From Polytrichum commune (taxonomy: Eukaryota > Streptophyta > Polytrichopsida > Polytrichales > Polytrichaceae), in NCBI GenBank assembly GCA_950295325.1, contig OX485807.1, positions 5,024,501 through 5,088,500 on the forward strand: a stretch of 64,000 nucleotides of DNA. Direction: 5' to 3'. The notes beneath the pieces are model-generated. The model ran no database searches and was not told the origin of the DNA. It worked only from the letters and a program-made list of their open reading frames with translations. Each line of letters opens with the position of its first letter. Within the stretch, counting starts at the first letter, position 1. Shown in pieces: positions 19,382 through 64,000 of the stretch. The position numbers and the translations under genes were made by a program.

Positions 19382-19877
19382 TCATACTCGGGCCCACGGA
19401 GGTGGCAGACGATATGCTACCCCCTACGAGCTTTTCGGGGGGGGGGGAATATTCTATCAGGGGGCAGCCCCCGACATTTTTCCTGCACCCGCCCGAAAAC
19501 TGCTGCCCGCCCGCCCGATTTCAAAAAAACTAGTGTACTTGCATTTTTGAAGGCTACTTGTCCACAAATCCCATATTGAGTGCACTTCATTTTCAAGGTC
19601 TCAAATGCAATACATATGTTCAATTCCATTGAGTAATTAATCAATTCACTAGATTTCATTTTCAAAGTGAAACCGTCAATAAAGCATGTAATTAACTTGG
19701 AAGTCAAAAATATTAAAAAATCCTCATTACCACTGAGGTTATAATTTTTGTCACTTACAATTGAAAGGGACTTTGTCATTCTAAAATGAAACTAAAATTT
19801 ATGGTTTATTTTTTATTTTTTATTTTTTATAATATATTTAATACCTTCTACTATCACAAAGTTTTCATACGCATTTA

Positions 19878-20373: not shown

Positions 20374-20710
20374 TTAAACTAGTTAAGTAAGATTGAATGC
20401 AACTTAGTCTAATAATTTCTGATTAATCCTATTCAAACCCATTTAAATCAGAAAATATGTGTACCAAATTAATTAACCCTAATTAATTATAAAATGTACT
20501 TACTGGAATTAGTCATGATTTAAATGGAATTAACTCCAGTAAATATAATTTATGATTAATTAGGATTAATTAATTTGGTAAGCATATTTTCTGATTTAAT
20601 TGGGTTTAATTAGGATTAATAAAAAATTATTAGACTTAGTTGCATTCAATCTTACTTAACTAGTTTAAATGCGTATGAAAACTTTGTGATAGTAGAAGGT
20701 ATTAAATATA

Positions 20711-22363
20711 GGGGATCGCTATTTCCACACCTTTTTTTGGCTAGATTCACACCTCTTTGCTGGTTCGGTTGGCGTTGCACTGAGGCGCTACATATAAGAT
20801 TCTTCATGGTGCATCCGGACCGTTGATCCACCAAGGCCCATCCAAGCAGTGTTCAAGATTGAAGTCTTCAATGCCCTTCAAACGTGATTTGGCCCTTCAA
20901 AATATACCTCTCTCAAAATAGCCCTTCAAAACGCAACCTCAAATTGAAAATGAAGACATCATTTGAAGTCCTCGGTATAATTTGCCCATCACAAGAACCA
21001 ACAAGCGTAGGGCATTGTTACTACAAGAAGTGGAGTTACAAGGTTGATTCTTAATTCTTCACATTGTACTAGAAACATGTACCATATAATTCATACACAA
21101 GTTTAATACAAGTTTTGTATTTCATTTTTGTATTCTTGGATTGACGTCTTGGATTTGAACCGGCCCTTCAATTGAAGGGTTGAAATTTGAGAGCCCTTCA
21201 AAATGAAACTCATATGAGGGCTTCAATCTTGAACACTGCATCCAAGGGCCTCAATGATCCTAGGTGGCGGTGGGGTGGGGGGCGGGGGTGGTGCTTGCCA
21301 CCAAGGCGGGGTGGGGCCGTGGGCCTCATGTCTTTTTTGGGGAGGCCGGATTTAGGGTGGTGTCGGGCATAGTGGCTAGGCGGGCCCAGTGGCTAGGCCT
21401 ACTTATTATATAACTAGTTAGTTAGCCTTACTCTACTTACTAAATGACTAGTTGGTTACCCTTACTCTACTTACTAAATGACTAGTTGGTTACCCTTACT
21501 CTACTTACTAAATAACTAGTTGGTTACCCTTACTCTACTTACTAAATAACTACACTAAATATGATATTTAGTGTTAGATACACTAAATACGAACACTACA
21601 CTAAATCTCACTAACCCTATGAAAGTAAGTAAAATTAAATGTAAATTCAAACACTAAATATCATTTATGGTAATATGTGAAAGTTACATGCACAAATTTA
21701 GTGTTTAGTAGGAAAGAGGTGGCAACAAGGAAGGTGGCGGCGGCGCATTTATGTCTAACACTAATTATCAAAGAATTGAAAATTAGTGTTGAGCAAGGTA
21801 GGGTGGTAAAACATTAAATCTAATCAAACACTAAATATCATATTTAGTGTAGTTGGTTAGCCTTACTCTACTTACTAAATAACTAGTTGGTTACCCTTAC
21901 TCTACTTATGGTCACTCTTCTTAATTGGACATGTATATTTGAGTGGTATATGTGCAAGTCTTGAAGTTAAGCTTTGATGCGTTAAAATATTGGAGAGGCT
22001 TACCAACTAGTTATTTAGTAAGTAGAGTAAGGGTAACCAACTAGTCATTTAGTAAGTAGAGTAAGGCTAACCAACTAGTTATATAATAAGTAGGCCTAGC
22101 CACTATGCCCGACACCACCCTAAATCCGGCCTCCCCAAAAAAGACATGAGGCCCACGGCCCCACCCCGCCTTGGTGGCAAGCACCACCCCCGCCCCCCAC
22201 CCCACCGCCACCTAGGATCATTGAGGCCCTTGGATGGGCCTTGGTGGATCAACGGTCCGGATGCACCAAGAAGAATCTTATATGTAGCGCCTCAGTGCAA
22301 CGCCAACCGAACCAGCAAAGAGGTGTGAATCTAGCCAAAAAAGGTGTGGAAATAGCGATCCCC
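20711..22363. mobile_element. 1653 bp foldback transposon with 8-bp duplication
   Basis: The ends are GGGGATCGCTATTTCCACAC and its inverse, with long arms (20711-20846 continuing at 21247, paired with 22363 back to about 22000). The direct repeat TAAATATA flanks it at 20703-20710 and 22364-22371. The left palindrome arm (about 19828-19850) has the matching sequence with a single TAAATATA in inverted form, so the 8-bp duplication is real. The interior has tandem copies of an ~33 bp unit containing CTTACTCTACTTACTAAATA and no transposase. An 8-bp duplication is compatible with hAT, P or Merlin; the terminus is not a typical hAT one. Confidence 0.85.
20847..21238. mobile_element. 392 bp hAT-type MITE nested in the 1653 bp element
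   Basis: The ends CAGTGTTCAAGATTGAAG and their inverse are bounded by an 8-bp duplication CATCCAAG (20839-20846, 21239-21246). CAGTG termini with 8-bp duplications are diagnostic of hAT elements. The opposite arm of the host element, near 22230, keeps the empty site with one CATCCAAG. The interior is made of CCCTTCAA-rich repeats and has no ORF. Confidence 0.9.
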
Positions 22364-22792
22364 TAAATATATTATAAAATTATAAAAATAAAACATAAAT
22401 TTTAGTTTCATTTTAGAATGACAAAGTCCCTTTCAATTGTAAGTGACAAAAATTATAACCTCAGTGGTAATGAGGATTTTGTAATATTTTTGACTTCCAA
22501 GTTAATTACATGCTTTATTGACGGTTTCATTTTGAAAATGAAATCTAGTCAATTGCTTATTTACTCAATGGAAGTGAACATCTATATTGCATTTGAGACC
22601 TTGAAAATGAAGTGCACTCAATATGGGATTTGTGGACAAGTAGCCTTCAAAAATGCAAGTACACTAGTTTTTTTGAAATCGGGCGGGCGGGCAGCAGTTT
22701 TCGGGCGGGTGCAGGAGAAATGTCGGGGGCTGCCCCCTGACAGAATATCCCCCCCCCCCCAAAAGCTCGTAGGGGGTAGCATATCGTCTGCC

Positions 22793-25700
22793 TCAAAGGC
22801 CTTGGGTGTCGGGGGGACTTAGTGTGTGTGGGTGATTTTGTGGCTGGCCGAATCTTCAGTGTGTATAAGTTGTGATGTAATTTGGACCTCTCGGTGCAGG
22901 TTGTTGGAGCTTTTGGATTGTGACTGTTAAATTTCTTGTTATTGGGTGGTTGGGTGCAAGAGTTTTGGAGGAAGGCTGGTACTGGTTGTGTGGCGTTTGA
23001 GTGTGTGCATAAGTGTGGGCGATTGAAACAAGTTGTGAAGAATTCTGTGTGTGGGTTGGGTGGGCGTGAGACTTTAATTTGTGTGAATTCGTGAAGGAAG
23101 AGTCGGTGTTGGAAATTGGGTTGTAAAATTTAGGGGTGTTTGGGTACAAGATTCCTGTGAATACGTTGTACCGACAGGCGAGAAGGAAAGCACAACAGAA
23201 ACAAAACAACAACAAGACAACAAAAAAGGAATAAGAAGAAGAAAAAGAAGCAGCAGTTCTCGTCTTGAAATACGTGGAGACGTGCTTGAAAGTGTCGGTA
23301 TTCTTTTTCTGAGATACATTTGAGGAGTGGTGGCCATAATTCCATTCTGCCTTTGGGAACATCTGAAGAGGTTCGGCAGAGATTGCTAACATCATAAGCG
23401 GGGCAGAAAGCAAGAGTGGGCAGATTCATTTGAACAGATGCATTTCATCACTGATCGGTGAAGAAGATCACTTCACTGTTTGCATCTAAGGTTTCACACG
23501 CAATTGTTCATCTCCGACTGACTCAGTCCTTGTGACATACAATCATATACAACACCAAATTGGAGATCAAACTTGCTGCTCTCAAGCTCATTTTCTTTGA
23601 ATTTGAAGCGCCTGTGCCAGAGTCCTTGTGACTTCGGAATCACGCCGGGCTGTCTGTCTGGAGATTCATCGACCTGGATCGATTAAAGATAGAAAGGAAC
23701 CGGAAGGCTAGAACCCTGGCAGAGATTCGAAGCAGGAGAAAAGTGTAGCACATGAACTGAGTGGGAGGAGACCTCAGAATTTTCGCATGGCCGGCTGGGG
23801 CGTTGATCTGAATATTCGGTGAATTGCATTGAAAAGAGAGCGGCGGTTCCTATGGCATAGAAAGATAGTTGCTGGCGGTACTCCGAATGGAAATGAATGC
23901 AGAGGAGGGGGTGCTTCTGAGCAGCATCGGCACATCCTTACATGTCTTTGTAGTTATGAAAGCCTCCGTGAACTAGCCTGAGGTTTCGAAACGGGTAGCA
24001 ATTAATTATATAGTTCGGCAACTCGGAGATAGATAGAAAAGAGATAGCATCTGGAGCGATAACTGCTGTTAGCGAGCCGATCTCGAAAGAGGGTGTAGCA
24101 AACTTGTGTTTCGTTGATAGATCGGGCCATCTCAGAATTCTGCAGGATACTTGTCCACAATCGTTGGTAGAAGAAGAAATTTGTTGCTGCGAAGTTAGTG
24201 GAGTTCTTTGCTTCCGTAGTTGTGAGTCTTGAGCTCTCTGTCTTGTAACCCTAAGACGACGGACGTCTCCACCATGCTCCTTGTAACTCGCTCCAACAAA
24301 AACTTCGTATAAAGACATGCTTATGAGCTTTCAATGCCTGCTGACGGACGGCTGCATTGTGACGCAAGTCAGAAAATGAAATAAGCCGGTGATTTATCGT
24401 CCAGTATAGCATCATCCCTGTTACCGAAAATGTCAATTCCTTTGATCAGAAGCTTTGGAGTTCCGGTGCGATACCGACAAATCGCGTGGCTGTTCTCAAC
24501 TTGAAATCAACCTGAGAGACCTATTGACGGCAAGTGCTTACTCAAAGACATCGAAACCATCTAAAAGTCGTTACCACATTTTGATAGAGGTGAAGTTTCT
24601 ATACCTCTCCGTGCTTGAAGAATGTCTTGCAGCTTTCCATGATTTTAATTTTCGTCAATATTTTTGGTCATTTTCTGTCTGTAAAAATGTCAGGAGGAGT
24701 GTGGAAGGTTTTTATAAGCTATAGTACGCAAGATTTATTCAACATTTTTCAACCCTAAAAGCAGGACGAAGAAGTTCTTGTAGTTTTTATCCTAAGGTGG
24801 AGAGAAGTCGCTCCATATTTACAGTTCAGTTTCAACTTCTGAGCAGATTCTCTCGACACCATCCTCGCCAATCAATAATCATTTTATTCTTTCTTGAGGC
24901 CGGACGTGTTCACTTGGTGAGTGGAACCTCTCCTCGCAAATTTGATATTGACTTTGAGGTAGACATAATTGCGGGCTCCATAAGAGCAAGGATGAATGAA
25001 GAGCGTCTCGGGTAGGCTGTCTCCTAGATAACATGATACCCTTATCCAATGCATATAAGGGATGCGGATGTTATTCGGTTGTTTTTCTTAAATCGGACAC
25101 ATGTATTTGATTGTCGTGTGGTTAGACGAGGATCAAAGAACAAACACCATAAGAATATATGATGTCTAAAAAAGATTGGATTACATTTTCAGCTCTTATC
25201 AACTACTACACACTCTAGTGAACATAATTGGGAGGACCTATGTATTTTGTCAAGGAATCAACAATCATGCGCTTCCAATAGTCATAACTAAAGCAATTGA
25301 GGTCTGAATTTCAACCCAACTTTTGCTCATGCTCATCATAGATTTTCCAGTGTTACAAAAGTTTCGTTGTGTAAATCTAGTATGTCGAAGTTGAAGAACA
25401 TGAAAAATGAACTGATTAACATCCACATATCTTAAGGGTAAGGGAGGGTTGTTTTTGGAACTACTCAAGGGTAATTGGTTGGTTGGTGAGGTTAAGGATT
25501 GAGTGTGTTGGTGGTCTGGATAACAACATTGATAGCTAAGTAGTAGGATTTGTCTCCACAAAAACTAGAAGGTAGACTTGTTATGTAACTTCAATGATGC
25601 ATCTTACTGATCACCCTGAACAAACTTATATGATTGTCTTTGTGGGTTCAAACATCTCATAATTAGAAAGGTATTGAAGACAATGTTTCAAATTTGTCAT

Positions 25701-28107
25701 GTTAGGCCAGTTCATAATATAAATCCACCCCCATGTTACTGATCATCTACTCAAGTTGGAAGTTGTGAAGGCAAGTTGCTTATAAATTGGTCCAAAACTT
25801 ATAGTATGTTTACAATATTCAGAGGGGTGAGCCTGCTATGTGGGCCTTAAAATATGAACGAAGTGATGTCCAATTCACTTGTTGGTGATGCCTGACAAAA
25901 TCTAAAATCAATGAATTTGTAAAAGTGTATAGCAATGGAGTGACGTGTTTTTGGATCCCCTACAATTGGCGAGGGATCAAGGGCCTTGACATTGTAACTC
26001 GACAATGATATGTGTAAGTTGTGTCAAGTTTGAAAAACGAGGATGTGCCTTCAAATTAATATCCCTTTATACATGTTTTGGGTGGACAATAAAAAGACAT
26101 GTACATACAAAGTTATAGCTAAGAAATAGCAAGAAGTGCATTTAGCACACATAGGAGGTAATACCATACCATATATATATATATATATGACAAAAAAAGA
26201 CTTGTGAAAGATAGACCTACAATATTTGTAGGCAAAAATGTTTTAGTAATTCATCTAATTTGAAAGGGCATCTCAATCGATTTAAAAAATATCAACGTTT
26301 TTATCTTTTCTTTTTTCTTTCTTTAATAATTCGTCCCAACTTACTATAGTCTCCTATATGTGTGCGCCCTTGTTGTAGATTTATGGATGGGTTACAATGC
26401 TTCATAGGGCATATCATATTTACATTGCTAAGATAAAGAATATCCTATCTCTATGGATATTTTGAAATCCATACTCATAATAAATATCCATTTTGTGCTC
26501 CCTCTTGCTACAAGTGCTAAAAACCAATGTATCCCTTGGGCACGGAGTGTATTCTATGTGGTTGTAAGGTTTCCTTTGATATGGCTCACCTCACCACATT
26601 TAAGCTTTCCTAAGAGAGCGGGCCATGAGTGGCAATTGTCTAAAAGTCTCGAATGTTGGTTAATATATATGTAATAACATGAAATAACATCCATTGGACT
26701 TTTGTTGGTTGAGTAAAAAGATGATGAATTGATGTACTAGGTGGTTTGTTCTACTTGGTTTTGATATTTTGGATGAGTTGTATGAATGAATTAAAGTAGC
26801 ACCATTTAACAAATTAGAGTAATATATTAAAGTAGCCCCTATATAGCTACATAAAAGGAGTGGTTATTGCATTAAGCTTAAACCTTTTTATTACATGACA
26901 TCCTAACCCACACATGATAGTCTATTTCGTTTCAACAAGGTTGCATTTGTCTAGTTCCATCGAAAACAACAATATAGGGGTGATGCAAACTAGGCTTTGT
27001 AATACAATAAAAAATGTTGTTTCAAAAGTTTTTGTAGCTACAATAATTTTTCTTGACACCATATGCAAAACACAACATAGTTAGAAGTATTGTAAGCTTA
27101 ATGCCCTCTTATTGATGAAGAAAATAGAACATATATAGATGACAACTCCATAGTCAATGAACGCTTGAATTTCACCAATGTCACTATCTTCAATAAACAT
27201 ATTAACGTGGCATAGTTCATAAAAAATCTAATTCATGGGTTGTCGAATTGGTGTAATAAACCAATGGTCTAAATTTCTATCTACCAATGCCAATCTGTAG
27301 AGTGTAAGATTGCAATTTGTCTTTAATCTATTATATGTACTAAATCATTTTCCATAATTATATATTATGAAACTCTAGGGCAAGCATCTAGAATTAAAAC
27401 TAAGTGAGAAATCTGAATCTTAGCTAGTTCTTGTTGAATTATCTTGAATTAAAATACATATCAGCCAAGATGTTTGATCACTCATTGCTAATGTCTTTTG
27501 TCACTGAGTTTCTGTTCAAGTTTTGATTATTTGTTAATTGTCACAAATTATTGTTAAATAAGATATTAGTGAAAATACAAATCAATTTATTTGAATTTAT
27601 TTATCTAAATATTGGTTGGCTTCTTGAGCTCCCATGTTGTACTAGAAGGACACCTTGAGAGTTTCTCTCAAATCATGAGATTAAGTTTAGTCCACATTGC
27701 ATTCATTTAGACTAGCATTTCATAAAGTATTAAGTAAGTCAGTCAAATAGGTATCTCGAGATGATTTTGTCACAATATGAGTGGATGTTTCTAGAAGAAA
27801 TTTTTGTACATTATGTATATTTTGGGCACTTAAGTTGGCATTGAATATATTGAGATATTAAATAATAATATCATCCAACCAAATTGTCCAATAACTATTG
27901 TTCTTCTCAAATTTTATGTAATTTTCATTGTTCAAAAATATACGGAGTGATTCAAATTCAATGACATCATCCATGGAGTAGTCAAGTTGGTGTAAGGTAT
28001 CATGGACCTATTTGATCATTTCATCAGTAGCTTAACCAAAAACTTTATTTGTTTGGCAAATGCAGGTGTTGTATTGGGATTTTTCTTGAGATCAAATTTC
28101 CAACAAC
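22793..28107. other. Long stretch without a supported gene
   Basis: About 23400-25020 is less AT-rich and less repetitive than its surroundings, and could be a non-coding transcript or a decayed gene. Open frames here (185 aa minus at 22856-23413, 126 aa minus at 23938-24318, 89 aa plus at 24455-24724) have no recognisable domains. The first owes its length to low-complexity A/T-rich sequence. 25-28 kb is AT-rich with an (AT)n microsatellite at about 26170-26188. No RNA gene was seen. Confidence 0.4.
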
Positions 28108-31100
28108 ATGGACGGAAATGAGGATGTGAACTTTTTAGAATTGTCTGTTAAAGCAATAGGCGATATGTCATTGGAGAAAACACTAATTTTGAATGAACGA
28201 CAATGTAGAAACTTGTTGTGCCACTTTCAAAAGTGCCTTAAAGTGCTTCAAGAGATTGGAAGTCTCTACATCGATGGTTTTGGACCAATATGGAAGGAAT
28301 TTTTCTTCATGGCAAGCAAGGCAAAGATGGTGATAGATAGTTGTACAAAGGATGATTGGCATCAAGAGGCATTAATGCAAAATGCAAACAAGGAAACTTT
28401 TCGGGAATTGCTATTGGAATTGGAGGATTGCGTTAACACTATATTTGAGAGTTTCCACAATCAACATCTCATTACTATTCAGAAAATGACAGAACTCAAA
28501 TGTTGTACCTCATTCTTTCCTGCAGAAATATCAGAAGTTGAAGAAGACCAAATTTCGCTATGTGAAAGATTGGTGAGTGATGTCAAAACGCTTCCAATTG
28601 ATTCTAACAATTTCAAACTAGCAAAGTATTTGCTTGAAATGATGGAATGTTCAAGTAGAGTGGAAGGGGGTGAGTTGGACAACATACAATTTCCGTTGAA
28701 TCTTCCTTGCCCCACATTTGGAGATCCACCTGAGTCACTAGGCCGAACCGGTCTAGGAGGTGTTAATGTCTATGGAACACAGTGGTTAGGCGTGCGAACG
28801 GCCACCAAGACCATTAATTTAAATATGATTAGTACAAAGGATCTACTTGAAAAAGAGGCTTCCATTTTGGCAGGATTGAATCATCCAAATATCATCAAGT
28901 TTTTCTACTGTGGGATGAAGGGAATTACAAATTATCTTCTTTTTGGCATGGAGAAAGGCGAGAAGAATTTGTCTAAACTATTATTTGATGAGGGAAAAAA
29001 TATTACGTATAATGCGAAGTTCAACATCATCTTACAACTTGCAAGTGGAATGTGTTATCTTCATGATATGAAAGTAGCGCACCGTGACTTGAAGCCTGAA
29101 AATGTTATTGTATCAAACGTGCATGTTCCAAGATTGGATGGCGATGGATATGTCATTGCAAAGTTGGTTGACTTTGGCATATCAAAAATTAAATCTAAAA
29201 GCAAATCAGAGTTGCCAACATTGGGTGCTACCATTGGCACACAAGGATACATCGCACCTGAGGCTATCAATAAAAAGCATGACGGTGACATTCTAGTAGA
29301 GGTGGATGCTTTCAAGGCGGATGTTTTTAGTTTTGGAGTGGTGTGTTATGTCATTCTTACTCAAAGTATATCACCATTTCAAGAATTACGCAAACGTGAG
29401 GAGTTGCTCAAGGAATTGAATAGTCGGAATTTGAAGCACTTGATGCCAAATGACATCATGCCAGAGTTGTGTTCGTTGATAGAAGAGTGTTGGTCATCCA
29501 ATCCATCAAAGAGACCGTTGTTTCCAAGCATACAATGTAGGCTTAGGGATATTCACAAGAAAAGTTTGAAAGCCTCAATTAAGTGTGAAGTGCCTAATTC
29601 CTTTGACATTGATTCCTTGAAGAATGCTAGAGCATGTATGACAAACTCATCAAGCATATTTATGCATCTAAAAGAATGGTTGAAAAATTTCTTTGCAATC
29701 TTCATATTCTTTAAATTTCATATTGGATGGTGGCAATATGTGAATACACCAAGATCAAAGGAGCCTAGCATATTGGCCAATGCACATGTTCAGGTTCGTG
29801 TTCTATTTATGATATATTTAGAAATACATAATGATTGCTTGATAGGGTTTTGAGTGGTATTCCTTCCTAATCCAAAAGCAACTTTGTTTTGATTTGCAGG
29901 CCTTCACCATAATTGAAAAATTACTTTATATTTGTGCAGGAGAACAAACTTTCAAAGACAAATGAGGACGTCATTGGAGTTCAAGATAATTTACTTATTG
30001 AGGTCAAGAACTTGCTTCAAAGAAATGCTATGTTGGGCATTTGTGGAATGGGTGGGGTAGGCAAGACCACATTGGTGAAGGCCTTCACGACTCGCGTAAA
30101 GAAGAATTTAAGAGACAATGCTTCCACCCATAAGTTGAGGGGTTTGAAGGTCGATACTTCATGTCACACATATGTCTCCAATAATGATCTTGAGTCTACA
30201 CTATTCGAAGATGTTATCTTTATTTCGGATATGAAGGACAAAGTGAAGCATGATGTTGATTATCTTGAAGTCATGAGAGAAATATTAAAGAGTATGAAAA
30301 TTTTATATGAAGTGCACCACTTGGAGGAAGGAAGATCTTACTTATTGAAGACATTGAAAGAGAAACGATTTCTTCTTATTATTGATGATGTAGGTGGAAT
30401 GAACGAGCTAGATAGGTTGTTGACACCTGAAATGTTTAGTGTTGGTGGTAGTAAATTGATTGCTACAAGCCGTGATTGGAGCAAGTTGAAGTGTGTCATG
30501 ACAAAAGATTCGTGTAAAATGGTATTGGAAACACTTGATGAGCCTCAAGCAATGAAATTATTCTCCAAGCATGCTTTTAAAAATGCACAAGGTATTTGCC
30601 CACCTCAATTGAAACAAATTTCAACAAAAATTGTTAAATCATGTGATGGCCTTCCATTGAGTTTGAAGGTACTAGGCTCGCACTTGAGCGGACAAGAACG
30701 CATTCGAGTATGGGAGCGAGCGTTGCAAAGGTTGCTAAAAGCTAATGCTTTGGATGTTAGCGACGATGACAAACTTTGGAGTAGATTAAGGCTTAGCTTC
30801 GATGACCTTAACCTTGAAGAGGAGAAAATTGTCATGGACATTTGTTGTTTTTTTTGTAAAGATGTTTCTATTCAAGGTACAAGTAAAAGAAATGCATTGA
30901 AGTTTTGGGGGGACTATGAAGAGTGCAATGCTATATTATCAAGTCTTGAAAGCAAGTCATTGGTGAAGATTGAAGATACGGAGATTATAAACGTGCATGA
31001 TCAATTGCGTGATATTGGGCGTATGATTTCAAGAAAAAGATTTCACGATGTCCGAAAATGGGATATGATTGAACACTCAATAAATGACTACACAGAGAAG

Positions 31101-33764
31101 GTATTTGAAATATTTTCTTAGATTATACTTGTATCATGCTAGAATATATGCTCCAACTTCAACATTTTGGTAGACTACCTTTGTTTGACTGTAGATGAAG
31201 GGAAGATGAAGGTGGTCTACCAAAATTACAATGGAAGAGAGAAACATGAAAACTATTATTGTTTTTCATGATTTATCAAGATACTTTAGCAAGTATCTTG
31301 AGTATACCAAAAGGATGGTAAGAATACAATTCAATGTTTTGGAATTTTAAATACAATTTAAAAACCATTAGTCATATTTTTATATCGTTATTTAGAAGAT
31401 TTAGGAGTATTTCACGAAATAGACAAGGCTTGCCAACTTAGCTTCAAATATACTTTGTAGATATTTGAAAGTTTGAGTGCAAAATTTACTAGTACATATA
31501 TTTTTTATACTATATAGGTTTGTGGTTTTTTTACTTGTTGAGGTTTCATGTTGATTTGAAAGCCAACAATTTTGATGCAGGAATTTCAAAATGTGGAGGG
31601 TCTTTGTTTTACAAACAATCATAAGAATTTGAAGTATGTAGCTAATGTCAAGACAAAGTTACCTCATCTTCGTCTTTTGAGCAACACATCATGTCAAGAG
31701 TTGGATTTAATGTATGCTCTTATAAATGAGACCGAACAACTTAGGTGGTTGAGCCTTCAATTCTCCAAAGAATGTGAAGAAAAGAATGGAATCCAACAAA
31801 ATCGAATATTATCAAAGATTCTAGAGCACAATAAATTGAGTCAAGTTGTAGTGTTGATGATAATGGATTGTGCATTCTTAAGGTCATTCCCATCCCCTGC
31901 TTTCAACTTGATCTCTTTGAAAGCTTTGGAAATCATAAGTTGTAAAGGCTTAGAAGCAATAAGTCCCAATATAGGGTACATGACAACATTGGAGTCCTTA
32001 ATATTGAAAGAATGCAAAAACTTGAGAATGATCCCTTTAGAACTTTGCAACTTGATTTCACTGACCACCTTAAATATTGAAGCATGTGAGCTTCTAGAAA
32101 ATATACCATATGCTCTTGGAGATTTAGTCCATTTGCAAGAGCTCTCATTGAAGAACTGTAAACTACTCTCAAAGGTGCCCAAGACAATTATTCACTTGAA
32201 GTATTTGACAACCCTTGATCTTTCACATACAGAACAATTGGAAGAGCTCCCACAAGGCTTAGGTAATCTATGCTCATTGCAAGAAATGTGTCTAAGCAAT
32301 TGTGAAAATTTAAAGAAGGTTCCTGAGGACTTGGGGAATTTATCATCCTTGGAATTTCTCGATCTTGAGGGTTGCAAAAGATTAGAAGAGCTTCCTGAAA
32401 GCCTTTGCAAATTGAAGTTATTACAAGAATTGCATCTCAATGATTGCAAGGTTTTGAAAAAATTGCCCGAAGACTTCGGAAATCTTTCATCATTGACAAT
32501 GTTGCTTCTTGATGGGTGTAAATTGTTGGACGAGATACCGGATGGCATTTGCAATTTATTTTCTTTGCAAACCTTGGGGCTTGCAAGATGTGAACTTCTT
32601 AGAAAGGTTCCTGAGGACTTGGGGAATTTATCAAGTTTGGAATTTCTTGATCTTGACGGTTGCAAAAGATTAGAAGAGCTTCCTAAAAGCCTTTGCAAAT
32701 TGAAGTTATTACAAGAATTGTTTCTCAATAAATGCAAGGTTTTGAAAGCATTGCCCCAAGACTTGGGAAATCTCTCATCGTTGACGATTTTGGGTCTTAT
32801 CAAATGTAAACGGTTGGAGGAGATCCCGGATGCCATTTGCAAATTGATTTCTTTGCAAACCTTGGGGATTGAAAATTGTGAACTTCTAAATAAGGTTCCC
32901 GAGGACTTGGGGAATTTATCATCCTTGGAAAATCTCAATCTAGAGGGTTGTGCAAGACTTGAAGAGCTTCCTGAAAGCCTTTGCAAATTGAATTTATTAC
33001 GAGAATTGTATCTCAATGAATGCAAGGTTTTGAAAGCATTGCCCCAAGACTTGGGAAGTCTTTCTTCGTTGATGATTTTGGGTCTTGGAGATTGTGAACA
33101 GTTGAAGGAGATCCCGGATGGCATTTGCAAATTGGTTTCTTTGCAAACCTTGAGACTCGCAAACTGTGGACTTCTTAGAAAGGTTCCTGAGGACTTGGGG
33201 AATTTATCAAGTTTGGAATTTCTTGATCTTAACGGTTGCAAAAGATTAGAAGAGCTTCCTGAAAGCCTTTGCAATTTGAAGTTATTACGAGAATTGTTTC
33301 TCAATAAATGCAAGGTTTTGAAAGCATTGCCCCAAGACTTGGGAAATCTCTCATCGTTGACGATTTTGGTTCTTAACAAGTGTAAACGGTTGGGGGAGAT
33401 CCCAGATAGCATTTGCAAATTGGTTTCTTTGCAAACCTTGGGGCTTGCAAATTGTGAACTTCTAAGAAAGGTTCCTGAGGACTTGGGGAATTTATCATCC
33501 TTGGAACTTCTCGATCTTGACGGTTGCATAGGACTTGAAGAACTTCCTAAAAGCCTTTGCAAATTGAAATTATTACAAAAGCTATATCTCAATGATTGCA
33601 AGGTTTTGAAAACATTGCCCCAGGACTTGGGAAATCTTTCGTCATTGACAATGTTGCATCTTGACGGGTGTGAATTGTTGGAGGAGACACTTGATGGCAC
33701 CTGCAAATTGGTTTCTTTGCAAGCCTTGGGGCTTAGACCGTGTAAGAGGGCACGCTTTCAATAA
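28108..33764 (+). CDS. Protein kinase-NB-ARC-LRR (PNL-class) immune receptor
   Basis: Putative intracellular immune sensor. Exons 28108-29793, 29940-31100 and 31581-33764, all phase 0, give 1676 aa. Residues 1-200 are a helical region with no motif I can name. The kinase is about 212-485: Lys234 (TATKT), HRD at 325-327 in HRDLKPEN, DFG at 355-357, GTQGYIAPEA and an intact C-lobe, so it looks catalytically competent. NB-ARC follows from about 575: P-loop GMGGVGKTT (~598-606), kinase-2 LLIIDDV, RNBS-B KLIATSRD, GLPLSLKVLG, and VHD in place of MHD. Residues from about 1030 to the end are LRRs. Kinase-NBS-LRR fusions are known from mosses, in contrast to TIR- or CC-NLRs of flowering plants. The start ATG has A at -3 and G at +4. 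No stops or frameshifts interrupt it, and each intron has GT-AG borders. Confidence 0.93.
32333..33764 (+). repeat. Five 288-bp tandem units encoding 4 LRRs each
   Basis: The GGGGAATTTATC landmark occurs at 32333, 32621, 32909, 33197 and 33485, each exactly 288 bp apart. A unit is 96 residues, four LRRs of 24. These begin roughly with GNLSSLEFLDL, CKLKLLQEL, GNLSSLTIL and CKLVSLQTLGL. The last unit ends at the stop codon after 280 bp. The LRRs before 32333 (from about 31850) are less regular. The constant period without indels indicates duplication in blocks of four repeats. Confidence 0.92.
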
Positions 33765-54500: not shown

Positions 54501-56287
54501 GTTTCATGAAAGAGAAGATCATTGTTGAAACAACCGAACCCCTTGGCTCACCCAAAACCCTAAAACCATAATTCATCTACAAAAATAAACTAAATAAAAG
54601 TAATTTTTCATCCATCCCATTTGAGCCTACATAGTATTTAACTTAGGATACCCTTATTCAAGGCTATTTAAAATAAAATTATAATAAAATTACACATGTT
54701 ATATTACATGGTATTTTTTTTATAAAAGGTTTCCATCATTAATTCGTCCCTTATATTTTATATATAATTTTTCAAAATTTTACCTTGAATGAATATTAAA
54801 TACCTTATATTCTATTCCACATTGTTTCCAAAATACTACCAGTACCCCTTGGGGGGTTCACTGGCAAAAATTGTAGAACAACGTACGATAAAAAAATAGG
54901 GTCCAATATATTCATTGTAGATAAATCTTGTAAAAAATGTACATGTAAAATAGGGGATTCTAAAATAATGAAACATGTTTACATGTAAAATACCATCACA
55001 TATAATATTTTCAGGCTTTTTACATATAAAATACCATCACCTTATAATCTTTTCTGCAAGGTAAATAACCCCCCCAATAAATAGGTCCCGAACGCACGTG
55101 TATGCAAAATATAAGAGGGAGTGAACCCTCCGAGAAGTACCCCCCCCCCCACCAAAACTAGCCCCCAAGAAACGACTGAAAGAAAACGAATGCCCCCATC
55201 CCCTCCATGTGATACCTAAAACTTACATGGAATAACCTACCCGATGTTTCACTTGAAGTGTGTACATTGAGTGACCGTAATAAAAAACAAGATTGTCTAA
55301 TTTTGGATGGCAAGTGGATGATGATTTTTCATCCAATATGCTTCACTACATAACATATATTACGAAAGCAAGCATTTAAATGTCCAATTGAAATGACTCC
55401 ATCGAATTTGATAAGTGATCAAAGTTTATTGACTCAAGGGTAGGATCCCCGGGCCTAGCGTGGGGTTGTTCAAGCTTTAAAATTTTGCCCAAATTAGGCA
55501 CATACATGCATGTCTCAAGCTTGCATGCGTTGCAAGACCCTCATGCGAAAGATTTCAAAAAACAAATGTTGATGTTGGCAATCTAGTATGCAAATCAACT
55601 ACAACTTGGTGTGTCAAGGAGAATTCTACGGTGAGGCGTTGGCACTTGCATAACATTAACTCAACGTCGTACTTTCATTTTGTGGGCTATGGGAATATAA
55701 TCATGGGATGACTCAGATTCAAACTGGGCTCCCAACATGGCATGGTTTCAATTCCCAAGACCCCCATAACAAACACATAACACTGAGTAATGTTGTGTTG
55801 TTAGATTCATCAAGTAGAAGGTAGGAAAACCGACAATGATGAATGAGCACTACAGGTGCAGTAGACTAGGGTTAGAATGATTCTTGTGTGTACCCGAAAT
55901 GGCTAATTGTAAAAATGGTGGCCTGAAACTAGGGTTAGAATGATTATTGTGTGGATCCAAAATGACTAATTGTAAAAACGATGGCCTGAAAAAAAAATGC
56001 AATGATTGGTTGGATAGGTGTTGTTTCACACCACTTGTGATCACTTTCTGGGTGTCATCGAGTTAATTGTTTTGTGTGCATTTGTATGTAGAGTAGGATA
56101 TTTTGATGCTCAAATTAAGGAAACTCTATTATACAAGTAGGGGGTTTGACTTACTTGCCTCTTTGGGAAAATGTAATTGATGATTTACATGGAATAAAAT
56201 TATGAAACAACTTGCATTCCTCATCATTTCCTCTACTTTATCTTTGATAAAAAAAATTACACAAATTTCAAGCGAGTCTTTCTGGCC
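51552..56287. other. AT-rich intergenic DNA with G/C homopolymers
   Basis: No gene was recognised. It contains poly-C/G runs of nine or more at about 52902-52915, 54021-54031, 54081-54092 and 55139-55150, and a (GAA)n microsatellite at about 53683-53711. It also holds the second copy of the dispersed repeat first seen at 1412-1560 (about 52770-52890). Between 55860 and 55990 a short unit (GGGTTAGAATGATT) occurs twice. Confidence 0.5.
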
Positions 56288-57970
56288 TGTCACGTGAGGC
56301 GACATCGGGGGCTAAATCACGTCAAATTAGGAGTAAATGGACTCCATTGGGAGTCCATGTGTGTTTGGATGAGTGATGGACTCCATTGGGAGTCCTAGTT
56401 AGTTGTTCATCCACTCCATGGATGAAATCCACATAAGATTGGGGTTATGTGGAGAGGAAGGCATCTTGACTTGCCATTGTTGTCAAGTCAAGTCTTGTGA
56501 GTGTGTTTTGAGAGAGAGAGAGAGCTTGTTGTTGCTATCTTATGGCTATGGTGTAGTAGATCATGAGTAAAGCCTTTGCATTCTTTCTCCATCACTTGCA
56601 CTCTTGGATTCTCCCTTTGTGGAGTGAGAGATAGCTTGACTCTTGTGTGTGAATTTCAGAGTTTCTTAAGCTTTGTAAGGAGACTTCTTAGTTTCTTGAG
56701 CTTGGAGAGAGAAACCCTCATACTTGACAACAATTGGGCTTATTTTTCATTTTTGGTTGTATTTCTGAGCTAGAATGGCCCAGTAGTGGGAGCAAATGAG
56801 TGATACAAGTGTATGAAAGCTTAGTTTGCAATTCCTTGCAACCCTCAAGAAGATTTTGAGAAAAATCTCCACATCTCTTTTGGTGTCTCTTTGTGTTTTC
56901 TTGCATTGTTGATGGTTGAATCTTGAGACCAAATGGAATCTCAAGTCACATCTTTCTTACTTGCAAATTGTGGAAGCAAAGTTTAACTTTTTTTTCTTTT
57001 AAAACAAACAGAACAAAAAAAAATAAAAAAATCTGATTTGTTTTTAATTTTTTTGAGCTCCGGACGGATCCGGAGCTCACCGGACCCTCCTGGAGCTCCT
57101 GGCAGGCCGGGGGCGGGCGGCGCAAACCGGGCCGGGGCTGGGCAGCTAGGCGGGCGGGCGTCAGCCGGGCCCCACGGGCGGGCGGTGCCAGCCAGGCCCC
57201 ATGAGGTAAGCCCCCTTACCTTTTTATTTTTTATTTTTTATTTTATTTGGTTTTGGTTTTTGTTTTTGTTTTTTTTGTTTAATTAAAACTATTATTTTTT
57301 TTATATATATATTTTTTTTTCACATTTTTACTTTCACCTTTCAAACTTGGCATCCCATTCTCACAAACTTTGAGGTTCAAATTTGGGGGCATACTAGCTC
57401 CGATTGGAGTGAAATTTGAGCCTATCTTGTGTGAAATTTGCCAAGGAATCCAATGGTGTAATTGGATTGTTGATTGGAATTCAAAATCATTGCTGAAATT
57501 ATTAATTTCAACGCTGATTTTTGTTTTTGGGAGCAAATTAACTCCGAACGGAGTGAAATTTGAGCCTAATTTGTGTGAATTCTTCCTAGGAGTCCATTGG
57601 TGCAATTAGTTTGTTGATTGGAGTCCATAATCACCTTGGAAATTAACATTTTCAACGCTGATTTTTGTTTTTGGGAGCAAATTAACTCCGAACGGAGTGA
57701 AATTTGAGCCTAATTTGCGTGAAATCTTCCTAGGAGTCCATTGGTGCAATTAGTTTGTTAATTAGAGTCCATAATCACCTTGGAAATTAACATTTTCAAC
57801 GCTGATTTTTTAATTTTAATTACCAATCTCAAACCTTTGCACAATTTTGGAATTCTGGGGGCCTAAATAAACACTTGGCATTTGGCAAGGGATTGCCATT
57901 TAGATAGCCCGCAACAGGTGCAAGTTGCCATTACCTTGTAGATAGTTGCCGGTACTCAAGTGATTATTTT
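56288..57970 (+). mobile_element. Probable 5' LTR and leader of the Ty3 element
   Basis: TGTCACGTGAGGCGACATCG at 56288 resembles a Ty3/gypsy LTR start. AGTAAAGCCTTTGC at about 56568-56581 is a typical LTR polyadenylation-signal context, preceded by a (GA)n run at 56511-56525. A strongly GC-rich insert-like block lies at 57057-57215. I could not identify the LTR end or a primer-binding site, and the 3' LTR lies outside the window, so borders are provisional. Confidence 0.4.
57383..57812 (+). repeat. Three-copy 144-146 bp tandem repeat in the leader
   Basis: Units start near 57383, 57529 and 57673. Each contains an AACTCCGAACGGAGTGAAAT-type core and ends in TTTCAACGCTGATTTTT. Copies 2 and 3 are almost identical and copy 1 is older. 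The repeat lies just upstream of gag. Confidence 0.85.
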
Positions 57971-59990
57971 ATGGTGCAAACTAGGAGCCGATATTATCGA
58001 TCTCCATCACCAGATTACTTGGAGGACGTGCATACCACAAATCTTGAGCCAGAGGTAGATACCAACGAGGCTTTTGAGCCTATTTCGGCATTGGACACTA
58101 CTAGTAGGCTTTGGATTTGGAGTGTTGGCACGTTCGACGAAATGAACGACGATCACCACGGTTCAGTGCGTGATCGGTTCTCAGGTCGAGCTGGGGGCAT
58201 TTCCTTGCCCGATTGGAAACTCCGATTTCGTACTTGGATTAAGGAGAAACGCCAAAGGTCTTCCAATTTCAATGATTGGTATGCCTTTGAACTTCTGCCT
58301 CAGCATTTGGAGTATGAGGCACTCCAAACTTACGAACGCTGGACAGAGGGTCATTAACGACAACTTCGGGAGGTGGAGCAGTATTGGGAGGCCCGGGTTG
58401 AGCTTATTTCAGCCCTTAAAGATGGGGCAATTGCCACCTTAGCTCCACCCACCTTAAAGGAGGAGGATCCACCAGAGGAGTCTAAGGACCAAGAACTGGC
58501 ACTTGGGCCAATAGTGGCTGGCAGTAGCACGGCTACCCTTTCACGGATGGCACGTGCTACACAGGAAGCATTGACGGCTGTTGGTCCACCACCTCCATTT
58601 AATCCCCTTGTTGAATTTGTCGCACATTTGGAGGTGGAGTATGGTGGGTTTCGGCGAGACCAGATGCAGTGCATTCAGGATTTCCGCCGAGAGAAGGCTG
58701 ACACTCCACGGACCATGTATACGCGACTCGCACGCTTTGCTGTTGAGTCGGGAGGTGTTTTTGCTGAGAGTCAGCTTGTCAAATTTTTTTTGTCTAAGAT
58801 TGACAAGCGGCTACTTGAGTTGGCATCACCTCGGATTATCCTCGACTACGAAGGCAGAGCTACGCTTGCACAAGCGTTTGCCGTGGTTAAGAGATGTGAT
58901 CGGGCTCTCTGTCAACACGATGCCACAGACATGGTATCTTGGATGACAGAGAGTACGAAATCAAAAAGAATTGTCACAGCTACTAGTAGTTTAGCGGAGA
59001 CTCAAACCGTTAAGGAGCAAAAGATTTTGCATTGTTGGGGTTGTGGAGAAGCTGGTCATTCGAAGAATGATCCCAATTGTCCTAAGAAGAAGAAAACCCA
59101 GCCTTTGGGAAAATTCAAACAAAAGATAGAACCAGTAAAGGCAGGGGACAATTCTAAGAAGAAACAATTGAAATGTAACCATTGTGGTGGCACTAATCAC
59201 GATGTGCATCATTGTTTCCAACTTCATCCTGAGATGCGGCCTGCCAGTTATGTCACTGGCAAATTTCCAAGGGAGCAGAGTCTTGAGGCTAAGGTGGCAG
59301 AGCTCGAGCAAAAGCTCAAATCTTCTGTATCTTTTGCTCAAATTTCTGAGCTGTTTGCAGGTGGTGGCACCTCGGGTTCGGACATGTATATGTTTGGGGC
59401 ATTTGGAGAGGTGGTGGCTGCGGCTTCTACTCGATCACAAACATTGGCAAATGCGGTGGCTTCTATAAGTGGTGGTAGCAACGAGGTGTCACATCCTCGC
59501 CATGCCGGACCAGCGGATCAAGTTGGTCAAGCACGTTTACCTCTCTCATTTGGATTGGTAGACACCGCTGTTGTTGGAGTTAAAAACCATGTACCTTTGA
59601 GAGATGGGGATTCCATCTCGAAGGATGTTACGCAGACATTGACATATAAAATTCTCCATATGCCAATTTTCTCGGGTTCGGAATTGATGGCTCCGGATTT
59701 CAAGCCTGCTGGAGTTTTCCATTTAGCTGGGAAAATGTTAGAAGGAAAGGCGGATTTGCCATCCCTTCAAGTATCCCAAGCTGTTGTTGACGTACCTGTG
59801 GCTGAGGAGGTGGAGGACTTAGCCAATTTGCGAGCGAGCCTTGCGGATGCAGCAATTATTGCTTTTGGTAAGCACACTGATATTCCTCCATCAACAATTT
59901 CAGCAGTGGACACGTTCTTTTCGAATTATGCAGCGGGTGCGGCATATCTTGCAGATATTTCTGCAAGGCTTGCGCGCGAGCGGCTTAATT
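57971..59990 (+). pseudogene. gag: Gag with zinc knuckles (one in-frame stop)
   Basis: Starts MVQTRSR, a common start in plant Ty3 Gag. The matrix/capsid-like part runs to about residue 300 (WYAFELLPQHL, YTRLARFAVESGG). A TAA at 58355-58357 interrupts an otherwise continuous frame. A knuckle CWGCGEAGHSKNDPNC follows near 59035, then a basic stretch and a second Cys/His cluster CNHCGGTNHDVHHC near 59177. A coiled-coil-like segment (LEAKVAELEQKLK) follows. The knuckles would bind the element's RNA. The boundary with protease is not sharp. Confidence 0.85.
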
Positions 59991-60039
59991 TGCAACCTGC
60001 AGTTGTACAGCTGATGAACGACAAATCTTTGTTTGTCGT

Positions 60040-60265
60040 TTCACATGCGGATATGCCTACTATTCGTGCTACACCACTGAGGGTTATGATGGATTCCGGT
60101 GCTCAACCGGTTATGATTGGCAAAAGACTTGCTGACAGTCTTGGATTGACGCCAACAAACTTAGATCCTTGTCCATTCACAATTGTGACTTCAGTAGGGG
60201 GCACTGAACGTGCCACAAGTTACACCAAGACACCTCTATGTTTGATTTTTAATGTGGGGGCATGA
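60040..60265 (+). pseudogene. Retroviral-type aspartic protease
   Basis: The catalytic DSGA motif (VMMDSGAQPVMIGK) has its Asp at 60092-60094 and is in frame with Gag. It would cleave the polyprotein. A TGA at 60263-60265 cuts the frame about 55 residues later, and the same frame then continues open to 60787 as a linker of unknown function. The linker (60266-60780) includes DILVGQQTLYPLGF, typical of the C-terminal part of such proteases. Confidence 0.8.
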
Positions 60266-60785
60266 CCTACCTACACTCATTTGTCAATGGAGTGTGTTGT
60301 TACTAATGCTACCAACTATGATATACTTGTTGGTCAGCAAACTCTTTATCCACTTGGCTTTGGTTTGGATAATTGGATTGAAGAGGCATGGATTAGACCG
60401 GGATGGTCTTCTGGAGATGGCAGGAAGGTATTTATTCCTGTAGCATTTGCAGCTACTTCTATGACTATGGTTGCACAGACAATGTTTGGTTGCAGCGGTT
60501 TAGTTGCAGATTTGCCTTGTGCTCCAATTTTGTTGGAGGAAACATTGGACTACGCTTGTAATGCAGCAGAACAACAAATTTTGCCATCTTTACAAATTTC
60601 TGCTCGACATTTCAAGGATCCACTTCCACCATGGCGTGCTCCTAAGGAGTTATCCGACCATTGTCGACACATTGTAGCGGATTTGGGGCTTGGAGAGACA
60701 CCTCCAACGTCATCCTCATTTTCTTTTACTCAACCCATTCGTTGGCAACCACCACTTGAAGGTATTGTCCTTGTAGAAAACTTTT

Positions 60786-61730
60786 AGGGGCATTGGCACA
60801 AGTTTGGCGGTAGTGTTGGAGGCTGGGATTACAGTTAGGCGATATATTCATGTGGATAATGGATATGCAGCCAACAGAGCCGTCGGACACCACATTCAAC
60901 AATTGTTGTTGAGGTACCCCGCACAATTGTCAGCCTCTGCCATTCTTGGATGTTGTGGTAAACTTCCTCAAGATGTCACTATGATTAGTGATGAGGATTT
61001 GAGAAGATTGGGCCACGTGAATTTAATTATTGCAGGATGGCCTTGTCAAGGCCATTCACGGACAGGAACTGGCCAGGGTTTGGATGATCCTAGGTCTAGT
61101 TTGTTCGCGGATTTGATGCGATTGACACAATGGTGGTTTACCCACCAATCAAGTCCTCCAGGATACATTTTTGAAAATGTGTCATTATTGGGTGATACAC
61201 GGCACAAAGTGGTGAAGGATGGTGAGTACATTAACCAAATTCTGGGTACTCCAACATTTCTGGATGCTGCATCCTTGGGATCCTTTTGCTCATCGGCCTC
61301 GTTGATTTTGGACCAATTTGGTATCACCTCAGGTGCTTTCAGCGGCGATCGCCCGCATTCCCCGCCTTATGAATCGCAAGGTGGATGACATTTTAGATGC
61401 TCATCGTGTTTCTTTGGCAGTTACCAAGGATGACATCTTGCCATTTGCATTAATTAACAAGGTGGGAATTCCGAGAGGTGCACTACCTACTTTTGTGACA
61501 TATTCACGGTCTTTTCCATTTTGATCTCGTGGACCATGCATGGTTTGGGATTCAAAATTCCAAACTCATGATGAGCCTACGGCAGATGAGCGGGAACGAG
61601 CCATGGGTTTTCCTACAGGCACTACGGCTGCTCATGGGCTTCAAGAAGGTCAGAGACGTTTCCTATTGGGACAAACTATGGATCTCAATAGCATTGTGTG
61701 GATGATTGGAATTTGTCTTGCTGCTCAACA
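60786..61730 (+). pseudogene. C5 cytosine DNA methyltransferase domain in the retrotransposon
   Basis: Five C5-MTase motif regions occur in order. Motif I, the AdoMet site, is GGIGTSLAVVLEAG after a frame break near 60785. Motif IV is GWPCQGHSRTGTGQG, with the nucleophile Cys codon at 61044-61046. Motif VI is FENV (about 61170). Motif VIII is HRPR-FWTNL, split by a TGA at 61303 and reached by a frame change near 61270. Motifs IX/X are ERERAMGFPTGTT (61588-61626) and QRRFLLGQTMDL (61651 on). The segment between VIII and IX is only about 90 residues, so the target-recognition region is small. The layout recalls the DNMT3/DRM-like de novo group, but that is inference. It sits between protease and RT in the element's own frame system. 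The catalytic residues are preserved although the copy is broken. Confidence 0.92.
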
Positions 61731-61739
61731 ACGTATGGA

Positions 61740-62085
61740 TGATCAATTGCTTCCTTTAAGGACAGAGAACAATGGTCAGGGGGCAATGAAGCCGCAATCC
61801 AAGGATCACATGGAGGTCAATGATACCGAGGGATTATTTTCTTTGAAATAACAAGTTGCGGAAGAGTTTCGAGCCCAACGTGTTTTTTCGGCTTTGGCCC
61901 AAGATTTTGGAAAGTTGGAAGCCCATAAAATGTTTCCACTTCTATTTCTTGGTGACACTTCATATGTGGGCAGCTATTTAGCTATACAAACTGATTGTAG
62001 TGGAGATGATACGCATTTGGATTCAAGTACAGATGATGGCGGCAAAGGTGTTGCCTTCTCCACGGACTAGCAATCACAGGCTGTG
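61740..62085 (+). other. Linker between DNMT and RT
   Basis: An open but unrecognised, acidic and low-conservation segment in the same frame as the DNMT end and RT, with stops at 61849 and 62068. It is probably a polyprotein spacer. Confidence 0.5.
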
Positions 62086-63125
62086 CTGGCACCAAGTGGC
62101 AATCCTTCTATGAAGAAGGAAACCACGGAGTTTGACGATTGGCCAATTGAAGTGGGGCCAAAACTTACTGGTGTCGAAGCACGAAAGGTACGGGCATTTA
62201 TTCGCTTTTACCGTAATTGTTTTGCCTTTAGTCTTCATGATCTTCAAGGATATAAAGGTAAACCTGTTCGTATTCAACTCGATGACGACCATCCTATTTT
62301 CAGACGGCCGTACAGACTTAGTACATCTGAAAGGTTGGGTGTTTAAACTCGATATCAAGAATTATTGGCAGCGGAATTGATTGAACTCTCCAATGGAGAG
62401 TATGCTTGTGCCACGGTTATGCCTTCAAAGAAAGATATTTTTGGCAACTGGACGGAAAAACGGATGTGTGGTGATTATCGTCCAATCAACCGCAAGACCA
62501 AGTCGGATCGATATCCAATGCCGATGCCAGAGGAGTTGTTTGATGCACTGGGATTTGCTAGAATCTTCAGCACTATGGATTTTAGGTCTGATTATCATCA
62601 ATTACCTTTGTTGTTGGGTAATTAGGTGAAGACTGCATTTTGGAGAATTGATAAAGATGGCAATGATCAACTTTATCATTGGAAATTTTTGCCATTTGGT
62701 CTTAAGAATGCACCAGCTGAATTTCAGCGGGTGATGGACCAATTATTGGTTGGTTTACCGTTTGCTAGATGTTGCATTGATGATGTTATCATCTTTAGTA
62801 ATAGTCCACATGATCATGTGAGACATTTGCAAGCGGTATTTGAACGACTACAACAGTGGGGACTCCGATTACATCATGGCAAATATAAGTTTTCCATAAT
62901 CAATTGCCCTATTTAGGCCACATGATTGTTCCTGGCGGTCTTGGTGTGCAACAGGCGAGGGTGGATGCTTTGCACAAAATTCCTGCACCTAGTGATGTAC
63001 CACGACTTCGAGCATTTCTAGGATTGGCAAATTATTATAGAAGTTTTGTCAAAAACTTTAGTTTGATTGCCAAACCTCTCACCATTCTCACGTGGAAAGA
63101 CCAACCATGGATTTGGAGTCGGGAA
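62086..63125 (+). pseudogene. Ty3-type reverse transcriptase
   Basis: Shows the usual series: FRRPYRLS, a KRMCGDYRPIN fingers motif, STMDFRSDYHQL (catalytic Asp), WKFLPFGLKNAPAEFQRVMD, then CIDD at 62773-62784 where Ty3 elements normally have YxDD. LPYLGHMI and FLGLANYYRSFVKNFS follow after a frame change near 62900. Stops at 62344 and 62623 also break it. Confidence 0.9.
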
Positions 63126-63128
63126 TAA

Positions 63129-63740
63129 CAACAAGCATTTGATACATTGAAGCAGAGGCTCGGTTCAGCGTCAGTGCTTCGACGCCCGGATGTGTCTACA
63201 GCTTTTCAATTGCACACGGATTGGAGTGCAGTGGGATTGGGAGCGGTATTGACACAGAAAAATGAAGAGGGAAAAGAATATGTGGTGGCTTATGCATCTA
63301 GAAGCAATAATAATGTTGAATCTATTTATTCTTCTTATGAAGGCGAGGCCTTGGCGGCCGTTTGGGCCATTGCACATTTTCGATCTTATTTATATGGGCA
63401 AAAATTTACTTTGGTGACTGATCATCAGCCTTTAAAATGGCTTATGGAATCAGATAAATTCACTGGGAAACTTGCTAGGTGGGCATTGTTACTTCAAGAA
63501 TATGACTTTGAAGTTGTTCACCGAGCAGGAATTGTCATTTTGGAAGCAGACGGATTGTCTCGCAATCCAAGTCCTTCAGATGAGGATTTAACTGGAACTA
63601 GGTGGCATGGGGATTGTGATCGTGAGGCAGTGCCGGGTTGGAATGCTGCCACATATCTCACAATGATGTCGGGATTGGTTGTTGAGATCCTTGTGGAAGA
63701 ACAAGATGAGGAGGTTGATAAATCTCTCGTTGTTAGTGAT
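63129..63740 (+). pseudogene. Ty3 RNase H domain
   Basis: A TAA at 63126-63128 precedes an open frame to the window edge. It holds HTDWSAVGLGAVLTQ (first catalytic Asp), YEGEALAAVWAI (Glu), LVTDHQPLKWL (Asp) and the RT/RNase H tail EADGLSRNP. The active-site acids I expect are present. Confidence 0.88.
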
Positions 63741-64000
63741 GTGTGGGAAGACCAGGCGGTCTTGCACAAACTTCAACAAGGGATATTTCCTCTTGGACTA
63801 TCTGCTATGGAGCGAGATAGAGTTAGCCATCGAATAACAAGGTTTCGTTGGGCAAACGGCTTGTTATTTCGTGTGTGGCCAAACGGAACGAGGCGCATCG
63901 TTCCAAGGCCAGATCAAAGAGCTTCTTTAGTGCGGCAAGTGCACGAGGAGCTTGGACATTTTGGAGTGCGAAGGATACACTCTATGTTGCGCAACCAATA
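63741..64000 (+). pseudogene. Integrase N-terminus (window-truncated)
   Basis: The frame continues into a region ending VRQVHEELGHFGVRRIHSML, the His-His half of the H2C2 zinc finger at the start of Ty3 integrases. The Cys pair and the catalytic core lie beyond the window. Confidence 0.75.

Follow-up and report, generated by a model that had tools for sequence, protein, structure and literature searches.

A decayed copy of an abundant split-repeat Ty3/gypsy family with a DNMT3-class methyltransferase domain in the moss Polytrichum commune

A stretch of 64,000 nucleotides from the 407.8-Mb moss genome (C5:5024501-5088500, hereafter the window) contains part of a Ty3/gypsy element with a DNMT3-class C5-cytosine methyltransferase (DNMT) domain between protease (PR) and reverse transcriptase (RT). 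This bears out a preliminary description of the same DNA, and places in a land plant an element of a type that de Mendoza 2018 described. We consider it probable that the window holds a decayed copy of an abundant split-repeat Ty3/gypsy family that goes back to an ancient capture of a DNMT3-class domain, and that the family's DNMT is packaged and methylates the element's own copies de novo. The kind itself is already known from the charophyte element KnitGypsy-Dnmt3. The window copy measures 9881 bp, from window position 56288 to C5:5090668, and is flanked by the duplication GGCC; its integrase core, PHD finger and B1-A2-B2 repeats lie beyond the right end of the window. The parts within the window are:

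56284-56287 (no strand), GGCC, the 4-bp target-site duplication on the left; its right counterpart follows directly after C5:5090668, beyond the window
56288-56721 (+), terminal repeat A1, starting TGTCACG; A2 lies beyond the window, and A1 and A2 mismatch at 1 of 435 aligned sites
57382-57813 (+), tandem array of three 144-nt units within the element's 5' leader, found by repeat search
57971-60265 (+), Gag-protease part of ORF1, in which this copy has stop codons at 58355-58357 and 60263-60265
59033-59216 (+), two Gag zinc knuckles, read by eye from the translation, with no Pfam knuckle match above cut-off
60071-60214 (+), retroviral-type aspartic protease with DSGA at 60092-60103 (PF13650, 5.4e-05, at its cut-off)
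60266-60749 (+), remaining protease region and protease-DNMT linker (NYDILVGQQ.LYPLGF...), from translation and alignment
60750-61716 (+), DNMT3-class C5-cytosine methyltransferase domain, in this copy shifted in frame and interrupted by stops
61717-62067 (+), C-terminal tail of ORF1, from translation
62068-62076 (+), in-frame TAG and CAATCA, i.e. TAG-CARYYA, the type I readthrough context, at the ORF1/ORF2 boundary
62077-62916 (+), reverse transcriptase, broken in this copy (PF00078, 1.7e-17)
63189-63503 (+), RNase H (PF17917, 1.4e-36)
63909-64000 (+), start of the integrase (H2C2 zinc domain), a weak match cut by the window end

Within the methyltransferase region described earlier (60786-61730), motifs IV (PCQ) and VI (ENV) lie in frame 0 at 60777-61388, where PF00145 matched with an E-value of 1.1e-10 (42 bits vs. 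a cut-off of 22). Motif I spans a frame change near 60780, and motifs VIII, IX, and X were recovered in other frames up to approximately 61716 by tblastn (pieces 5265-5807 and 5785-6216 of locus L027, the window copy, equivalent to window 60765-61307 and 61285-61716). The profile match and the tblastn pieces together confirmed the reported order and place of the C5-methyltransferase motifs, and profile matches did the same for the DSGA protease upstream and the RT pieces downstream. The NCBIfam dcm model matched the window DNMT below its cut-off only (39 of 100.65 bits). The motif match is not a chance one, because 38 related proteins (40-92% identity) and numerous further copies within this genome were found. 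The flanking frames, on the other hand, had been called continuous and are not: three different frames hold Gag-PR, both halves of the DNMT, and RT/RNase H, and the coding sequence is interrupted by several stops and shifts frame at least three times. Judged by these frames, the window copy is dead and encodes no working enzyme.

Screening the genome with PF00145 yielded 123 scored matches of at least 353 candidates, one of which was a host DRM exon (L042). A second query, P0044 (the protein of a relative, from just past the protease to the end of ORF1), yielded 76 scored matches of 685 candidates, and all 76 covered approximately residues 1-550 of 571. The family includes numerous open frames of up to 1386 aa and numerous others with stops. 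For comparisons between copies we used 31 transposable element (TE) loci drawn from the 123 scored PF00145 matches: the 8 best by score (L001-L008), 9 chosen because their open frames were long (odd-numbered 5' pieces from L009 to L025), a choice biased towards intact copies, 13 plus-strand rows from the upper part of the match table (L029-L041), and the window copy. The order PR-RT-RNaseH-integrase, with the rve integrase after RNase H, identifies the family as Ty3/gypsy; ORF2 matched Ty3-G Gag-Pol at 2.8e-97 and its RT is of the Ty3 type. Adjoining one element copy, a Transposase_21 (tnp2) domain was seen at L018 2046-3635 (1.9e-62).

Seen alone and with its frames shifted, the window copy could be taken for an ordinary gypsy element with a host DNMT gene or fragment lying in or beside it by chance. 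This is so improbable that it can almost be disregarded: the domain sits between identical neighbours on both sides in 76/76 scored copies, relatives at the identities given above occur in other sequence sets, and the sole host DNMT exon found belongs to a DRM, motif X coming ahead of motif I. Many copies with a DNMT at the same position were what the preliminary description had named as support. Its view of an internal domain rather than a nearby host gene stands as far as the fixed place is concerned; the DNMT is part of Gag-PR-DNMT, however, and precedes a readthrough-type stop. A single polyprotein was not found, since the long-frame copies have a single in-frame TAG between DNMT and RT.

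In the nine long-frame copies ORF1 is open for 1356-1386 aa and comprises Gag, PR, and DNMT. ORF2 (RT-RNaseH-integrase) begins exactly 3 nt past ORF1 and in the same frame in seven of them; the other two (L009 and L025) are without a clean ORF1-TAG-ORF2 junction and have an extra stop or a frame change there. Across the locus set the boundary codon was TAG followed by CARYYA in 31/31 loci, with the variants CAATCA, CARTTA, and, once, CAACCA. By our own arithmetic, assuming equal bases, the chance of CARYYA after a random TAG is approximately 1/512. UAG-CARYYA is described as the motif for type I readthrough in tobamoviruses, benyviruses, and pomoviruses (PMC5382211), and because TAG-CARYYA in all loci matches this tobamovirus-type motif, readthrough at the family's UAG is likely. 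The DNMT lies on the Gag side, because the TAG separates Gag-PR-DNMT from RT-RNaseH-integrase.

Comparison of 5' and 3' pieces revealed a common repeat A, aligned over 333-561 nt at 98.99-100% identity in nine copies; no such pair was found in L009 by this comparison. A second repeat, B (105-107 nt), flanks A2 on both sides in the five further 3' pieces examined; the 3' piece of the window copy gave an alignment to 59 nt of B. The terminal layout is therefore one of split repeats, A1...B1-A2-B2, and plain terminal LTRs are absent. The element starts with TGTCACG and ends with ACACGACA, and 4-bp target duplications were present in 10/10 copies. A plain LTR element was considered and dropped: the sequence to the right of the 3' repeat is the same in all fetched copies of a subfamily. 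For the DIRS order, no tyrosine recombinase domain was found in the scanned ORFs, which instead contain an rve integrase, and the 4-bp duplications are present. One copy (L009/L010) has A1-coding-B1 only, without A2-B2, and retains its 4-bp duplication AACG, a state expected after B1 had recombined with B2.

Aligned over 6 kb (57970-64000) with its closest relative among nine fetched copies, the window copy shows 362 mismatches and 3 gaps, and the differences include 187 C>T/G>A vs. 79 T>C/A>G changes. Most of this damage appears to predate insertion, because the mismatches are this many and yet the A1/A2 pair differs at a single site. From its sequence, the window copy probably inserted recently, from a template that was already damaged and was moved by the proteins of other copies. 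Gene conversion between the repeats is an alternative explanation for the near-identical A1 and A2.

The best match of the family DNMT, in sequence as well as in fold, was DNMT3, above bacterial methyltransferases and DRM. A full DNMT3 fold was predicted from the deeper alignment (pLDDT 89.0); a structure model from a shallower alignment (pLDDT 47.3) was left out of the analysis. Motifs I to X are in unrearranged order in the family alignment, and motif IV reads PCQ, as compared with PCN in the DNMT3B/3C chains shown. PCQ is kept in 30/31 of our loci and in 87 of the 99 relatives covering motif IV, and EN[VI] in 70/80 relatives; some of the 12 relatives without PCQ are probably decayed. An origin from DRM was ruled out by motif order (IX-X before I in DRM). 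The host DRM exon (C2:4703000-4704500) has motif X preceding motif I, and its best PDB match was DRM2 (5.6e-52). A bacterial or phage origin was likewise rejected, with M.HaeIII and M.HhaI scoring lower than DNMT3. A distant blastn against a phage collection gave no match, and viral contigs gave 6 pattern matches, none of which was confirmed.

Selection on the domain was estimated from copies with an open and at least 85% complete domain only (24/31 for DNMT). Between the two subfamilies of this genome, dN was well below dS for DNMT (median dN 0.27, dS approximately 2.5 and saturated, ratio 0.11, 72/135 pairs usable). The corresponding medians were dN 0.31 and dS 3.2 for gag and dN 0.27 and dS 2.9 (saturated) for PR, and with 1/15 and 1/72 usable pairs, respectively, the likeness of DNMT to gag and PR is one of medians only. 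RT-RNaseH gave dN 0.06, dS 2.4, and a ratio of 0.03. Within subfamily A, dN/dS was 0.35 for DNMT, 0.47 for gag, 0.30 for PR, 0.20 for integrase, and 0.06 for RT-RNaseH; within subfamily B it was 0.24 for DNMT, 0.22 for gag, 0.58 for PR, and 0.05 for RT-RNaseH. These ratios indicate that the DNMT domain is under purifying selection, though less strictly than RT, because its dN/dS is higher than that of RT-RNaseH.

The DNMT may be dead or purely structural. A non-enzymatic role (DNA/RNA binding, scaffold, or DNMT3L-like) could account for a constraint weaker than that on RT and for the relatives without PCQ. It could also account for a negative yeast assay of an algal relative: the K. nitens and LINE DNMT domains are reported to give no methylation in yeast, a result its authors call inconclusive as human DNMT3B failed too, while two SymbioDIRS-Dnmt3 domains methylated CG de novo in the same host (PMC5890265). 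With the catalytic motifs kept at the frequencies given above and a full DNMT3 fold predicted, we find such a role distinctly unlikely, and prefer an active enzyme.

Protein searches yielded at least 117 matches from 7997 scored candidates, and MARPO_0008s0049 of Marchantia polymorpha was among those listed. Its order is zinc knuckle, DSGAQ protease, linker, and DNMT; the protease had no Pfam protease match and DSGAQ was identified by eye. Compared with subfamily A, the protease region is 42% identical, the linker 24%, and the DNMT 50%. Because domain order and linker are common to both lineages, these sequences argue for one capture before the moss and liverwort lineages parted, or for horizontal spread. 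Of 141 proteins, 36 were near-complete relatives; 30 of these entered the tree, with 6 of our own loci and 4 outgroup rows; P0001, P0005, P0007, P0069, P0070, and P0083 were left out as partial. All 36 TE rows formed one clade (100/99) against DNMT3B, DNMT3C, and two DRMs. The monophyletic TE-DNMT clade named earlier as support was thus recovered, but with four outgroup rows only it is weak evidence and says little. The two subfamilies of the genome fell apart in this tree, with sequences from other public sets between them. Two individual sequences are worth recording. P0052 is labelled as coming from a Candidatus Obscuribacterales bacterium MAG and has 75% identity to the family TE protein P0047, perhaps a plant contamination of the MAG; P0095 has a partial DNMT fused in one frame to an integrase core and is probably a deletion derivative.

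The C-terminus of the integrase carries a PHD finger (PF00628, 1.5e-11 in one copy), and the C4HC3 pattern was present there in 9/10 pieces. PDB relatives of this finger include the PHDs of CHD4, PHF21A, ATXR5, UHRF1, and AIRE. Several of these PHDs bind unmodified H3 tails. A chromodomain at the integrase end gave no Pfam match in the one copy scanned (L012). Chromoviruses likewise have a chromatin reader at the end of the integrase, but theirs is a chromodomain (PMC3605345).

This anatomy suggests how the element might use its enzyme. Translation would mostly end at the UAG and give a Gag-PR-DNMT product, by which the DNMT would enter the particle in Gag-like amounts, and rare readthrough would supply the RT-integrase product. 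After release of the individual parts by the protease, the most likely substrate for de novo methylation by the DNMT would be the cDNA of the element itself or its fresh insertion, and the PHD finger might help to select chromatin. A possible gain is that new copies would appear already silenced, evading sensing and doing less harm to the host. The main target could instead be the host genome or other elements, through self-limitation or a shaping of host methylation. Host-wide effects and slower transposition are raised as options for retrotransposon DNMTs by de Mendoza 2018 (PMC5890265), and the many copies would supply the dose; a DNMT placed with Gag before a readthrough-type stop fits particle packaging, and we hold the host-directed target to be unlikely.

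Packaging and self-methylation, our preferred reading, can tentatively be extended, at somewhat less than even chances, to an ancient streptophyte lineage, older than the moss/liverwort split and possibly shared with charophytes, in which a DNMT3-class writer, produced in Gag-like quantity before a tobamovirus-type leaky stop, and a PHD reader of H3 tails on the integrase were selected to pre-methylate copies and steer their landing. If this were true, the writer-plus-reader pairing of animal DNMT3-ADD would have been recreated in a parasite. Plants silence transposons by cytosine methylation, a picture that is inverted by an element which is abundant, was inserted recently, and itself encodes a DNMT3-class enzyme. 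With many long-frame copies at hand, a land plant now offers a system for testing why a transposon would methylate DNA. From the position on the Gag side one would expect the DNMT to be packaged together with the cDNA, and from the PHD finger one would expect a rule of targeting. Neither was found in the text consulted on the algal element (PMC5890265).

The closest known system is KnitGypsy-Dnmt3 of the charophyte alga Klebsormidium nitens, described as having DIRS-like repeats with Gypsy domains (de Mendoza 2018, PMC5890265). As in the moss family, Gypsy domains accompany an intronless, unrearranged DNMT3-class domain within the element, the repeats are ordered A-coding-B-A-B, and the DNMT is under purifying selection (PMC5890265). 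KnitGypsy-Dnmt3 has fewer copies than are found in Symbiodinium, whereas the moss family has many; its DNMT is described in the Pol ORF, whereas that of the moss family is in the Gag-PR frame before UAG-CARYYA; and the word PHD, for the domain found on the moss integrase, does not occur in the main text on it (PMC5890265). The apparent difference in ORF would be in keeping with a capture in the moss lineage independent of that in Klebsormidium. Set against it is the unusual combination of Gypsy domains with DIRS-type A-B-A-B repeats and a DNMT3-class domain in both. We regard a parallel capture as rather unlikely and, by the common A-B-A-B repeats, prefer a single lineage that includes the charophyte element.

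Other relatives are more distant. SymbioDIRS-Dnmt3 and SymbioLINE-Dnmt of dinoflagellates likewise have a DNMT inside a retrotransposon (PMC5890265), but the former is a DIRS element with a tyrosine recombinase and the latter a LINE, whereas the moss family has a DDE integrase (rve) and 4-bp duplications. In orchids a Ty3/gypsy element has acquired an AlkB m6A demethylase and is a further plant example of the capture of an epigenetic or epitranscriptomic enzyme; unlike in the moss family, that enzyme demethylates RNA and is encoded by an additional ORF, and the element is 25 kb long (PMC9289625). Plant host DNMT3/DRM and the family DNMT have the DNMT3-class catalytic core in common, but host DRM is rearranged (PMC6453930) and the family DNMT is not. 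For DNMT3s of retrotransposons in streptophytes, a 2025 DNMT survey refers to de Mendoza (PMC12344493), and a bryophyte case is not mentioned in the portions consulted of that survey or of Yaari 2019. Among the matches listed, the open-licence literature contained no report of a DNMT-carrying retrotransposon in land plants. As far as the open literature shows, the occurrence in a moss genome and in a Marchantia protein, the Gag-side DNMT before UAG-CARYYA, the integrase PHD finger, and the 4-bp duplications on a split-repeat gypsy element are new.

Elsewhere in the window, pieces of a telomerase reverse transcriptase gene were identified at 8784-11155 (+) (Telomerase_RBD 1.5e-32, RVT_1 1.6e-9). 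An inverted-repeat nest at 16600-22800 (e.g. 398 nt at 95% and 143 nt at 100%) perhaps consists of nested non-autonomous elements. At 28090-33764 (+), consecutive frames encode a protein kinase, NB-ARC, and LRR, a layout that occurs in mosses, and the LRR part contains direct repeats spaced 144 or 288 nt apart.
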